Source: Salinibacterium sp. G-O1 (GTDB taxonomy: Bacteria > Actinomycetota > Actinomycetes > Actinomycetales > Microbacteriaceae). Taken from it: 64,000 nt of DNA. The notes under the pieces were generated by a model that saw only the letters and a list, made by a program, of their open reading frames with translations, had not been told where the DNA came from and made no database searches. The translations under genes and the position numbers were made by a program. The stretch is taken from contig NZ_JASISV010000003.1 of assembly GCF_030063305.1 (NCBI RefSeq), forward strand, positions 124,001 through 188,000. The letters run 5' to 3'. Of this stretch, positions 2,030 through 4,772 are shown piece after piece; the first letter of the stretch is position 1, and every line of letters begins with the position of its first letter.

Positions 2030-2043
2030 GGGACCAATGGCCC
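2030..2043. promoter_or_regulatory. DosR-like dyad upstream of the universal stress gene
   Basis: The 14-mer GGGACCAATGGCCC lies between the divergent kinase and universal-stress genes, 52 bases before the latter's ATG. It is one of four close matches in the first 5 kb to GGGACCWWYGSCMC, each upstream of a gene of the stress/dehydrogenase group. The GGGAC half-site is the hallmark of DosR/DevR sites. Binding is inferred. Confidence 0.6.
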
Positions 2044-2095
2044 TATGTCGCCCGAAGGCCCGGGGGGATGCTCGAAGGGAGAGGCGGCGACAAGG

Positions 2096-2929
2096 ATGGT
2101 CGGAACGATAGTGGTCGGCATCGATGCGTCGGGGCCGAGCCGGGCAGCGACAGACTGGGCCTTGGCCCGAGCCGCATCCCTCGGCGAGAGCGTGGAGCTT
2201 GTTCACGTGATCGACGAGCGATGGCTGGGCGAGAGCGACGCGGATGACGGCGACGTGCGGGATCATGCCGCAATGGTGCTCGACGCCGAGTTGACGCGCG
2301 CCATGGCTCACTCCCGCGGTGTGGCGGTGAGCGGGCGCGTGGTCACCGGATTGCCGCCCAGAGCGCTGATTGAAGCCTCGGCCGGTGCCGACCTTCTGGT
2401 CATGGGCACTCACAAGACTGGCTTCGCCTACGGCAGGGTGTTCGGATCGAAGTTCCTGAGTCTGGTGTCGGGAGCAGAGTGTGCTGTGGCGGTCATTCCG
2501 GAGTTCTTCGGCCGGTCCCGCGTCGGCGTCGTTGCAGCCGCCGAACTCAACGACACCGGCTTGCGTGCGATCGAGTTCGCCACGCGTGAGGCTGTGCGCA
2601 CGGGGCAGGTGCTCGTGCTCGTGGGGGCGTGGGTGGTCGAATCGTTGAACGGTCACCAGGCCGGAAGCCGGTCTCTGATCGTCGAGGCCGCAACGAATGC
2701 TGCGCGCGACTTCGATTCTCAGGTGATGGTGCGGTCCCGGATTTCGGACAGCACGATGTCTGAGGCACTTGTCGCGGCATCCTCAACGGCCAGCGTGCTC
2801 GTGCTCGCCCGGCCGGGAGATGAGGCTGACGACCCGACCCTGGCCGTCAGTCACGATGTGCTTGCCAACATCTCCAGCCCGGTGATCGTGGTCGATCCGC
2901 AGGTCGCGTCTGTCGTCAGGGAACGATGA
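2096..2929 (+). CDS. Tandem-domain universal stress protein
   Basis: 277 residues with two UspA folds. The first opens [15 protein letters not shown] and carries a nucleotide-loop signature VMGTHKTG...FGS. The second starts near [10 protein letters not shown] and ends SSPVIVVDP. The ATG at 2096 is chosen because GGGAGAGG stands about 10 bases upstream; an in-frame ATG at 2045 has no such site. In mycobacteria tandem USPs are core members of the DosR regulon, and here a DosR-like dyad lies just upstream with the two-component genes divergent. The 3' end overlaps the convergent alcohol dehydrogenase by 14 bases. Confidence 0.9.
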
Positions 2930-3959
2930 CGGCGCGTCCGCGGATGGTGCCGGCGTGCAACTTCTCGTATGCCTGAGGCGCATCGGCGAGGGAGAAGATT
3001 TCGGTCTCCACGGTGATCTTGCCGGCCCGGGCAAGGTCGAGCACCTCCATGAGTTCGGCGCGCGTTCCCCAGTACGGAGTGCGCACGGCGACGTCATAGG
3101 GCAGGCTGCCGAATCCGACCGGGAGCATGCCGCCGCCGATCCCGACGATCGTGAGGTCACCCTCGACCGCGACGACACTGCTTGCCAGCTCCACGGTCGA
3201 CTGAGCGCCGACGAAGTCGAAGACGGCGGTGGCGCCGAGCCCGTGGGTGAGTTCACGGATCGCAGCCGACGTGTTGCCATCACTGAGAATTGCCTCGTCG
3301 GCCCCGACCTCTCTCGCGAGCTCGAGCTTCTGCTCACTCAGGTCGACGGCAATCACTCGTGCCGATGACATGGCCTTGACGATCTGGATTCCGACGTGCC
3401 CGAGTCCGCCAGCGCCGATAACAACCGCAGTGCTGCCCGCAACGAGTTTCGGCAGTGACATCTTGATGGCGTGATACGGCGTGAGGCCAGCATCCGTGAG
3501 AGAGACGTTCGCGACCGGGTCGAGCTCCCCGAGCGGCACGAGGTGCCTCGCATCGTCAATCAGGAGGTAGTCGGCCATGGAACCGGGGGCGCCCAGGCCT
3601 GGGGGCTGGATGCCGAGGCGTGCCGCCTCGGTGCAGTAGTTCTCCTTGCCCTGCGCGCACAGGTGGCACCGCCCGCACCCCCACGGGCCGTAGACGGCCA
3701 TCGACTCACCGAGCGTGATACCGGTGACGCCGGCGCCGATCGCTTCGACCGTGCCAGCACCCTCATGGCCGAGGGTGAGGGGCAACCCGAAGCCGAAGGC
3801 GTCGTACTGCTCTTGTGGCAGGTCCATCACGAATTGGTCGGAGTGGCAGACGCCAGCGGCCGTCGTTTTCAGCAGCACCTGGCCCGGTGCTGGCTCAGGC
3901 CGGTCGATCTCGACCAGGACGGGTGCGGATCCGATGGTGCGATATTGGAGTGCTCTCAT
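2916..3959 (-). CDS. Zinc-dependent NAD(P) alcohol dehydrogenase (MDR superfamily)
   Basis: 347 residues. Catalytic-zinc ligands C38 (GVCHSD) and H65-E66 (LGHEGAG) are present. The four structural-zinc cysteines C95, C98, C101 and C109 sit in the lobe GPWGCGRCHLCAQGKENYC. The nucleotide-binding glycine motif is VIGAGGLGHVG. It should oxidise or reduce primary/secondary alcohols and aldehydes with NAD(P); exact substrate cannot be read. A DosR-like dyad at 3995-4008 is 36 bases upstream of the ATG, so it is probably induced with the neighbouring universal stress protein, perhaps to re-oxidise NADH under low oxygen. Confidence 0.9.
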   Translation of the reverse strand: MRALQYRTIGSAPVLVEIDRPEPAPGQVLLKTTAAGVCHSDQFVMDLPQEQYDAFGFGLPLTLGHEGAGTVEAIGAGVTGITLGESMAVYGPWGCGRCHLCAQGKENYCTEAARLGIQPPGLGAPGSMADYLLIDDARHLVPLGELDPVANVSLTDAGLTPYHAIKMSLPKLVAGSTAVVIGAGGLGHVGIQIVKAMSSARVIAVDLSEQKLELAREVGADEAILSDGNTSAAIRELTHGLGATAVFDFVGAQSTVELASSVVAVEGDLTIVGIGGGMLPVGFGSLPYDVAVRTPYWGTRAELMEVLDLARAGKITVETEIFSLADAPQAYEKLHAGTIRGRAVIVP

Positions 3960-3994
3960 GAACTCACGCTAGGACGGATATCCCGGATGCGCCC

Positions 3995-4008
3995 GGGCCA
4001 AAGGTCCC
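3995..4008. promoter_or_regulatory. DosR-like dyad upstream of the alcohol dehydrogenase
   Basis: On the minus strand it reads GGGACCTTTGGCCC, a nearly perfect dyad and the second member of the four-site set. It lies 36 bases before the minus-strand ATG at 3959, where an activator site overlapping a -35 region could be. Its right half is shared with the hairpin at 4003-4033. Confidence 0.6.
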
Positions 4009-4033
4009 GTCGTCCGAAAGCGGCGACGGGACC
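4003..4033 (-). terminator. Hairpin between doxX and the alcohol dehydrogenase
   Basis: A perfect 10-bp inverted repeat GGTCCCGTCG / CGACGGGACC with an 11-base loop follows the doxX stop codon on the minus strand. No U-tract follows. It may end doxX transcripts or form part of the operator, since one arm overlaps the DosR-like dyad. Confidence 0.4.
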
Positions 4034-4051
4034 CTGGCGGCTGGGGTTCGC

Positions 4052-4621
4052 CTAGAACAGCCACCGCTGCGTGCGCACGAATGGGAGTCGGCTCCAGGTC
4101 GCTCCGAACCCCCACGTGTTGCCGGCCGAGGTTGCGGCGATCACGATCAGTGCCAGCGCATAGATGATGTGGTAATCAACGGCGGGGTTCGTCGAGCCCG
4201 CGCCCGCTGTGAACGGCCACTCCGCGAGATACATCAGCACCATGATCACGGTGCCAGCGACGGCACTGACCCGCAGTCCGATGCCGAGCATCACGGCGAG
4301 GCCGATTCCGAGCATCCCGAGCATGAAAAGCACGTCGGTGGCAGGGCTCGCGATCCCGGCGAAGAAGGGCTGCAGTGGGCCGGTCACGGCTTCGCTTCCC
4401 AGAAACCCCTGGCTCGGTGTTCCGCCATTAATCCAGGCCCGCTCGACCGGCGTGGAGAACCCCAGCCCAAATGTCTTGTCGAGGAACGCCCACAGAAAGA
4501 TGAATCCCATGGCAAGTCGCAGGATGGCGAGCGATGGGTGCGCAGCGGAAGCGTGTCGGGTCGCCAACGTGACTGAGGCCGCCGCCGGTAGGTGGGTTGC
4601 GGGTGAGGCGATGGTGGACAT
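4052..4621 (-). CDS. DoxX-family membrane protein
   Basis: 189 residues. The start at 4621 (MSTIASPATHLP) has GGAACG just upstream; the longer frame to 4681 lacks support. About four membrane segments are visible, beginning at LAILRLAMGFIFLWAFLDKTF, the typical DoxX first helix, and continuing through VLFMLGMLGIGLAVMLGIGL and VIMVLMYLAEWPF. DoxX-like proteins are linked to quinone/thiosulfate redox chemistry and, in mycobacteria, to a membrane oxidoreductase complex; its substrate here is unknown. A DosR-like dyad at 4709-4722 precedes it, and it diverges from the butanediol dehydrogenase-like gene. Confidence 0.75.
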   Translation of the reverse strand: MSTIASPATHLPAAASVTLATRHASAAHPSLAILRLAMGFIFLWAFLDKTFGLGFSTPVERAWINGGTPSQGFLGSEAVTGPLQPFFAGIASPATDVLFMLGMLGIGLAVMLGIGLRVSAVAGTVIMVLMYLAEWPFTAGAGSTNPAVDYHIIYALALIVIAATSAGNTWGFGATWSRLPFVRTQRWLF

Positions 4622-4708
4622 GACGTTCCATTCGGTAGGGGCCTGCCGCGTGCAGTGGCCGATAAGTGGTGACGTGCACACTGTCCGGTGCGGCGGCGAA
4701 TCCGGTTA

Positions 4709-4722
4709 GTGCCGAAGGTCCC
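4709..4722. promoter_or_regulatory. DosR-like dyad upstream of doxX
   Basis: On the minus strand GGGACCTTCGGCAC, 87 bases upstream of the doxX ATG. It shares 11 of 14 bases with the dyad upstream of the universal stress gene and 12 with that of the alcohol dehydrogenase. Third member of the set. Confidence 0.5.
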
Positions 4723-4758
4723 ACGGCTTTCCGGCCGGGCCCGCATCAGCATCGCGGC

Positions 4759-4772
4759 GGGACCTTCGCCCC
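4759..4772. promoter_or_regulatory. DosR-like dyad upstream of the butanediol dehydrogenase-like gene
   Basis: GGGACCTTCGCCCC on the plus strand, 35 bases before the ATG at 4807. Fourth member of the set; the spacing to the start codon matches that at the minus-strand alcohol dehydrogenase (36 bases). Confidence 0.55.

Follow-up and report, generated by a model that had tools for sequence, protein, structure and literature searches.

The left end of the window (the whole 64,000-nucleotide stretch of Salinibacterium sp. G-O1 DNA analysed here) carries what is, with a probability of about 0.88, an oxygen-responsive regulon of the DosR/OsdR type, in which a heme-GAF kinase is paired with a DosR orthologue. 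In the proposed mechanism, the DosT-like heme-GAF histidine kinase (dosS) would sense the loss of O2, possibly also NO or CO, and would phosphorylate the DosR orthologue at Asp54. DosR~P would then bind GGGACC-WWN-GGCCC boxes and activate genes in two settings: at the locus, usp/dosSR, adh, doxX/bdh and phosphoketolase-PNPOx; outside it, cydA, a flavodoxin-like gene and a usp/P-type ATPase pair. Cytochrome bd may serve to scavenge scarce O2, phosphoketolase to yield acetyl phosphate, and the dehydrogenases to re-oxidise NADH. An earlier, sequence-only reading of this DNA had proposed a redox or oxygen switch with fermentative dehydrogenases as its outputs. The switch and its DosR-type regulon agree with the present analysis, while the outputs do so in part, as the predicted set also includes bd oxidase, phosphoketolase, stress proteins and a metal ATPase.

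Genes and boxes at the dosSR locus

The two-component genes lie on the minus strand. The dosS-like gene (331..1947, GTG start) encodes a 538-residue kinase in which Pfam recognises a heme GAF, a second GAF, HisKA_3 and an ATPase domain, and its end overlaps the start of the dosR-like gene as ATGA. The adjacent DevS/DevR-like pair described by the sequence-only reading is present, but the window holds only the N-terminal part of the regulator (1..334, minus strand); the remainder lies to its left, and the whole gene occupies L017:17702-18334, equal to G000:C3:123702-124334. To the right follow a universal stress protein gene (usp, 2096..2929, plus strand; PF00582, E 5.6e-22) and a zinc-type MDR alcohol dehydrogenase gene (adh, 2916..3959, minus strand; PF08240/PF00107, nearest NCBIfam model AdhP, below cut-off), both as first assigned. 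The DoxX assignment of the next gene (4052..4621, minus strand), which encodes a 189-residue membrane protein, is weaker, its one match (PF07681, E 0.021) falling under the cut-off. The last gene, bdh (4807..5883, plus strand), encodes a second MDR-family zinc dehydrogenase (PF08240/PF00107); the more specific name of butanediol dehydrogenase is not established, as all 25 matching NCBIfam models score below their cut-offs.

Four DosR-type boxes fall within a 2.75-kb stretch at this locus, each in a promoter region and with coordinates and strands as originally reported. The first, GGGACCAATGGCCC (2030..2043, plus strand), occupies the divergent dosS/usp intergenic region, 52 nt from the usp start codon (ATG 2096), and is predicted to serve both usp and dosSR, the latter by autoregulation. 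Such a box upstream of a usp gene beside two-component genes is characteristic of DosR/OsdR regulons. The second, GGGACCTTTGGCCC (3995..4008, minus strand), stands 35 nt upstream of adh. The remaining two share the divergent doxX/bdh region: GGGACCTTCGGCAC (4709..4722, minus strand) is 87 nt from the doxX start (ATG 4621), and GGGACCTTCGCCCC (4759..4772, plus strand), on the bdh side, is 34 nt from the bdh start. A fifth box lies outside the window, about 300 bp beyond its left end, and precedes a phosphoketolase gene.

A probable DosT-like sensor and a DosR orthologue

The GAF domain of the sensor matches that of DosT (2vzw) at E 4.8e-49 and 2.5e-49, and DevS structures are matched as well. 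Residues G52, H114 and Y136 are spaced by 62 and 22 residues, exactly as are Glu87, His149 and Tyr171 of DosS, for which the roles of the heme His and the distal Tyr have been described (PMC4082495). GAF-A thus contains both the proximal heme His (codon at 1606-1608) and the distal Tyr found in DosS and DosT, and is predicted to bind heme and to sense gas. Across an alignment of the window protein with 18 of the 20 relatives retrieved (all but L110 and L116, the latter being in pieces), the heme His is conserved in 18/19 sequences, the distal Tyr in 19/19 and the Gly in 18/19. The heme His is missing from the sensor of L117, a relative whose genome still has four boxes.

The chains of M. tuberculosis DosS (DevS) and DosT are both close to this sensor, and a variant of the main reading would make it a DosS-like redox switch, in which heme oxidation is the signal, instead of a DosT-like switch responding to O2 release. 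The residue aligned with Glu87 speaks against this. DosS has Glu at this position whereas its counterpart in DosT is Gly85 (PMC4082495), and the window sensor has Gly, as do nearly all of its aligned relatives. The surrounding motif is GALGV in both the window sensor and 2vzw, but GAMEV in the wild-type DevS chains 2w3d and 4ynr. Redox sensing of the DosS kind is accordingly ranked second to DosT-like O2 sensing, an unlikely alternative though the strongest of those considered.

The response regulator is a DosR orthologue. Its alignment to M. tuberculosis DevR (3c3w) is free of gaps over residues 1-208 (E 1.7e-69; the next best match, VraR, reaches 8.8e-44), so that a NarL-type receiver and a LuxR-type HTH are aligned over nearly the full length of DevR. 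The phospho-acceptor D54, corresponding to the Asp54 named for DosR/DevR (PMC3029386), is present, as are K179, K182 and N183, which contact DNA in DosR (PMC5999986). Binding of this protein to the boxes is predicted.

Boxes follow the sensor across the family

The comparison set comprised 150 genomes of the same family, 57 of them sensor-bearing (defined by a sensor match with an E value of 1e-40 or lower, in some cases in pieces) and 93 without the sensor. The best named matches, to Subtercola, Rathayibacter, Cryobacterium and Microbacterium, point to Microbacteriaceae as this family. A strict DosR-like form of the box, GGGACCWWNGGCCC, occurs in 84 copies in the sensor-bearing genomes, four of them in the window's own genome, versus 15 copies in the others. 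At least one strict box is present in 39/57 sensor-bearing genomes versus 11/93 others (Fisher p 1e-12, shared ancestry ignored), while a reversed control shows no difference (40/57 versus 59/93, p 0.48). The association, seen for the strict box but not for its reversed counterpart, is beyond chance. No strict box was found in 18/57 sensor-bearing genomes.

The boxes could in principle be read by another regulator, either a different NarL/LuxR-type response regulator or a paralogue, with DosS and DosR as mere neighbours. The 15 strict boxes in sensor-free genomes fit such a case, as do 19 first-look candidates from the sensor search in the window's own genome (nine scored, one a match at the cut-off), which imply that other kinases of the sensor's kind exist there. 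This explanation is nevertheless improbable in light of the association above and of the position of the boxes, half of those in sensor-bearing genomes (42/84) being no more than 30 kb away from a sensor match. A looser search of 14 genomes (the 11 box-bearing, sensor-free ones together with G082, G145 and G134) did not find a full sensor, and in the 11 it gave short kinase-domain matches alone, in 5/11. Furthermore, among 30 fetched loci, a homologue of one of 12 query genes lies within 1.5 kb of the box in 15/23 loci from sensor-bearing genomes versus 0/7 from others.

Local arrangements recur as well. Twenty neighbourhoods were picked by hand among the 57 genomes that have the sensor, with knowledge of the box list, and so serve as an illustration instead of an unbiased test. 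Here a box with at most one mismatch stands no more than about 200 nt upstream of the USP1 match in 11/17 neighbourhoods having USP1; for DoxX, a box stands no more than 200 nt upstream of the match in 3/5.

Boxes beyond the locus

How far the boxes can be recognised depends on the stringency of the pattern. All four window boxes match the original consensus, GGGACCWWYGSCMC, without mismatch, an agreement that is circular as this consensus was built from the same four 14-mers. With up to two mismatches it shows no enrichment in the window (16 matches versus 14.0 expected, a number reached in 26/100 shuffles), and it was dropped as a search tool. By comparison, GGGACCWWNGGCCC with at most one mismatch finds exactly the four boxes in the window versus 0.52 expected, and four places were reached in 1/100 shuffles. 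Genome-wide, its exact form occurs four times, three of these within 4.3 kb, versus none for the reversed control. At two mismatches it is rarer than that control (220 versus 538). The idea that chance, or the composition of GC-rich DNA, accounts for the four boxes can draw on the two-mismatch counts but has almost nothing left to recommend it, given the strict counts and the recurrence of boxes at orthologous promoters, the genome comparison having already disfavoured it.

The genome-wide search proposed by the sequence-only reading did recover promoter boxes, together with matches over genes. At least eight promoter boxes exist in the genome, five at the dosSR locus and three elsewhere, which overturns the notion of a compact regulon of four targets. 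Of those outside the locus, one precedes the cytochrome bd oxidase gene cydA, one a flavodoxin-like gene and one a divergent stress-protein/P-type-ATPase pair. The strict form with at most one mismatch is found in 15 places, seven of them outside the eight promoter boxes and five of these seven over ORFs. The 16 genome-wide matches to a looser pattern include six over likely genes, one on a short contig and one intergenic match of uncertain meaning.

The bd oxidase is a notable predicted target. Among the 40 best-scoring cydA matches (from 39 genomes, G042 contributing two), an upstream box with at most one mismatch is found in 9/26 regions from sensor-bearing genomes versus 0/14 others (Fisher p 0.016), and with at most two mismatches in 12/26 versus 0/14 (p 0.003), shared ancestry being ignored in both; 14/26 of these sensor-bearing regions lack a box even at two mismatches. 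In the two sensor-free genomes of the same genus that were searched, the cydA box is absent despite identities of 90 and 94% over the cydA fragment. Phosphoketolase is less firmly predicted, the data being weak alone: across 30 loci, 19 from sensor-bearing genomes and 11 from others, an upstream box occurs in 4/19 versus 0/11 at one mismatch or fewer (Fisher p 0.27) and in 7/19 versus 0/11 at two or fewer (p 0.03), shared ancestry again ignored. A link between DosR and cyd may already be in print. DosR, GGGAC and phosphoketolase were not encountered together in the open-access literature searched; phosphoketolase, hypoxia and DosR do occur together there.

Relation to known DosR and OsdR systems

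One close parallel is the OsdR/OsdK system of Streptomyces coelicolor. Predicted OsdR sites listed for SCO0167 (usp) and narG2 include GGGACCTTCGGCCC, which recurs unchanged in the copy at C3:123686 in this genome, and usp-adh, PNPOx and zinc dehydrogenase genes are among the predicted targets (PMC5069765). The same two rows of Table 1 contain AGGGACCTTCGGCCCC (PMC5069765). As the listed S. coelicolor sites have the GGGACC core, this half-site extension is not lineage-specific, contrary to what had been suggested; the core is also present in Actinomadura, Streptomyces and a Nocardioidaceae MAG. The systems differ in that the Streptomyces consensus is mainly AGGGCCGATCGGCCCT, and the main text of that study does not contain 'phosphoketolase', 'cytochrome bd' or 'DoxX' (PMC5069765). 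Nitrate reductase, a predicted target in S. coelicolor, is not represented among the eight promoter boxes here.

The DosR regulon of M. tuberculosis includes PNPOx-like and P-type ATPase members (the Rv1996/Rv1997 pair). Its gene order is dosR-dosS, unlike the overlapping dosS-dosR order found here, where the locus has a single sensor, of the DosT type. The two systems share the regulator residues and the His and Tyr of the heme-GAF sensor described above, a GGGAC-type box and the inclusion of usp genes (PMC5069765). However, the box here has C at position 6, whereas one stringent form applied to M. smegmatis is GGGACTTNNGNCCCT (PMC6448022). The predicted targets also diverge: phosphoketolase-PNPOx is among them here, and a box precedes cydA, whereas the regulators named for mycobacterial cyd in a review of the oxidases are SenX3-RegX3 and CRP (PMC7719681).

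Implications for low-oxygen metabolism

In most respects the system extends the DosR/OsdR family in an expected way. The literature cited here mostly treats DosR as a mycobacterial dormancy factor, while boxes before cydA and phosphoketolase suggest a role in low-oxygen energy supply and not in dormancy as such. Relatives that have the sensor and the boxes together offer safe systems in which to ask about the original purpose of the regulon. Tentatively, and at somewhat less than even odds, DosR outside the mycobacteria may be a direct oxygen switch for bd oxidase and a phosphoketolase-PNPOx operon. This would be an ancient energy programme of actinobacteria for low oxygen, in which O2 is scavenged, ATP is drawn from acetyl phosphate and electrons are dumped via dehydrogenases. 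The mycobacterial dormancy regulon would then be a specialised offshoot, with cyd given over to other regulators.

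Regulator and Sensor

The locus is well supported as a DosR-like regulon by the homology of its regulator and sensor, by an association of box and sensor across 150 genomes, and by a test of cydA promoters; DNA binding, gas sensing, and induction are predicted. The dosR-like gene is cut by the left edge of the window, and the full protein, completed from the flanking stretch, has 210 aa and gives an ungapped alignment with M. tuberculosis DevR (3c3w) across residues 1-208 (E 1.7e-69). It retains D54, K179, K182, and N183, the last three being core DNA-binding residues according to PMC5999986. 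The sensor gene dosS (331-1947) begins with GTG, overlaps dosR as ATGA, and encodes GAF domains, HisKA_3, and an ATPase domain; the first GAF domain matches that of DosT (2vzw, E 4.8e-49).

In DosS, according to PMC4082495, the heme is ligated by His149, and Tyr171 and Glu87 lie on the distal side. Counted on the alignment, the E (GAMEV), H (YHPPM), and Y (GTLYL) of the DevS chain are spaced by 62 and 22, in agreement with that numbering, and G52, H114, and Y136 of the window sensor show identical spacing. The heme histidine is kept in 18 of 19 aligned sensors and the tyrosine in all 19. Like DosT, the window sensor has a glycine at the place of Glu87, and the expected signal is therefore O2 release rather than heme oxidation. 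In a relative (G068), a DosS homolog (L117:9135-10727) carries QPPI instead of HPPM, having lost the heme histidine, and lacks the DosT-type glycine as well. Its mode of sensing must differ, though this genome still has four boxes of the strict DosR-like form.

Boxes in the Window and its Genome

The sequence-only reading placed four 14-nt boxes exactly: at 2030 in the dosS/usp intergenic region, at 3995 upstream of adh, and at 4709 and 4759 in the divergent doxX/bdh region. All are imperfect dyads, self-complementary at 6 to 8 of 14 positions. Their exact fit to the proposed consensus is no proof, because the consensus was derived from those four, and at two mismatches that pattern is not enriched in the 64-kb window (16 found vs 14.0 expected). 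The DosR-like form GGGACCWWNGGCCC, allowing at most one mismatch, recovers exactly these four sites and none besides in the 64 kb, with 0.52 expected.

Across the genome, GGGACNWWNGNCMC occurs at 16 sites (vs 9 for the reversed control), eight of them in promoters and the other eight mostly over likely genes. Five sites cluster at dosSR: besides the four window boxes, GGGACCTTCGGCCC (C3:123686) stands as a fifth about 300 bp left of the window. It is 35 nt ahead of a gene for phosphoketolase, behind which comes a PNPOx-like gene. Three further promoter boxes lie elsewhere. One is ahead of cydA (C4:6026), one stands in the gap separating a universal stress protein gene from a metal P-type ATPase gene (C3:190038), and one is at a gene only weakly identified as flavodoxin (C1:292643; top Pfam E 2.6e-05, below the cut-off). 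With the fifth box and these three, the notion of a compact regulon of four targets does not survive. Of the remaining eight sites, six overlap likely genes, a short contig holds one, and the last (C2:833017) is intergenic and of uncertain meaning. The strict form, at up to one mismatch, occurs at 15 places in the genome: eight are the promoter boxes, and of the other seven, by the authors' reading, five lie over ORFs and two are apparently intergenic.

A one-mismatch box, GGGACCAATGGCTC (L023:1501-1514; C3:280264), precedes by about 285 nt an ORF whose translation looks like a secreted multicopper oxidase. The regulon is flanked on both sides by ORFs (window 6432-8988, minus strand; L017:14020-14790 in the left flanking stretch, plus strand), which, judged from their translations, resemble N-acetylglucosamine-6-phosphate deacetylase, beta-hexosaminidase, and glucosamine-6-phosphate deaminase.

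Box and Sensor Across the Family

A sensor, defined as a match to the window's DosS at E 1e-40 or better, is present in 57 of 150 family genomes. The strict exact box has 84 copies in these 57 genomes (four supplied by the window's own), with at least one copy in 39, vs 15 copies in the 93 sensor-free genomes, with at least one in 11 (p 1e-12, in Fisher tests that treat related genomes as independent). The reversed control shows no such difference between sensor-bearing and other genomes (65 vs 99 copies; 40/57 vs 59/93 genomes; p 0.48). Half of the boxes (42/84) are no more than 30 kb from a sensor match. Three sensor-free genomes of 1.3-1.6 Mb (G013, G059, and G131) hold 3, 1, and 1 strict boxes and zero reversed-control matches; these boxes may be chance or relict.

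Among 20 neighborhoods hand-picked with boxes in view, dosS and dosR are adjacent in all, and USP, PNPOx, DoxX, phosphoketolase, cydA, and flavodoxin-like genes recur beside boxes. One copy, GGGACCTTCGGCAC, is common to the window and G114, where it precedes a DoxX match.

Promoters of cydA and Phosphoketolase

For cydA, the best box within about 350 nt upstream was taken in the best 40 rows (39 genomes). A box with at most one mismatch is found in 9 of 26 sensor-bearing regions vs 0 of 14 others (p 0.016), and with at most two in 12/26 vs 0/14 (p 0.003). The nine best boxes stand 86 to 123 nt ahead of the aligned start. In the two same-genus genomes searched, whose cydA fragments share 90 and 94% identity with that of the window's genome, the sensor is absent and the cydA upstream region has no box. 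For phosphoketolase, the corresponding counts are 4/19 vs 0/11 (p 0.27) and 7/19 vs 0/11 (p 0.03), so that a promoter link across the family is suggestive only. Literature searches found no link between DosR and phosphoketolase in the papers examined. PMC7719681, a review of mycobacterial oxidases, names SenX3-RegX3 and CRP as regulators of cyd and brings up DosR for the nitrate pathway.

Comparison with Other Actinobacterial Loci

In a scan of named genomes (best 80 of 463 loci, 1.56 Mb), the dyad GGG[AC]CN4G[GT]CCC occurs 163 times vs 67 for the reversed control, and GGGACCTTCGGCCC itself is present in loci of Streptomyces (3), Actinomadura, Rathayibacter, a Nocardioidaceae MAG, and a Dermatophilaceae MAG. 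Within these best 80 loci, by the authors' coordinate reading, a dyad precedes phosphoketolase by about 45 to 225 nt in 5 of 14 loci with that gene (L175, L190, L194, L201, and L203), with L166 a possible sixth if its minus-strand gene is of usual length. Among the 11 loci with cydA, of which L167 is without upstream sequence, a dyad precedes the gene in one, at about 70 nt (L190, Herbidospora). The cydA link is thus clear within the family and only hinted at elsewhere.

The GGGACC half-site had been thought possibly lineage-specific. Streptomyces OsdR sites in PMC5069765 carry it too, so it is not peculiar to this lineage: Table 1 lists AGGGACCTTCGGCCCC for SCO0167 (usp) and for narG2, and gives CGGGACCTTCGGCCCT ahead of SCO5979. 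The same source reports that OsdR recognizes M. tuberculosis elements. For this DosR-like regulon, cydA and, less firmly, phosphoketolase are predicted targets worth following.
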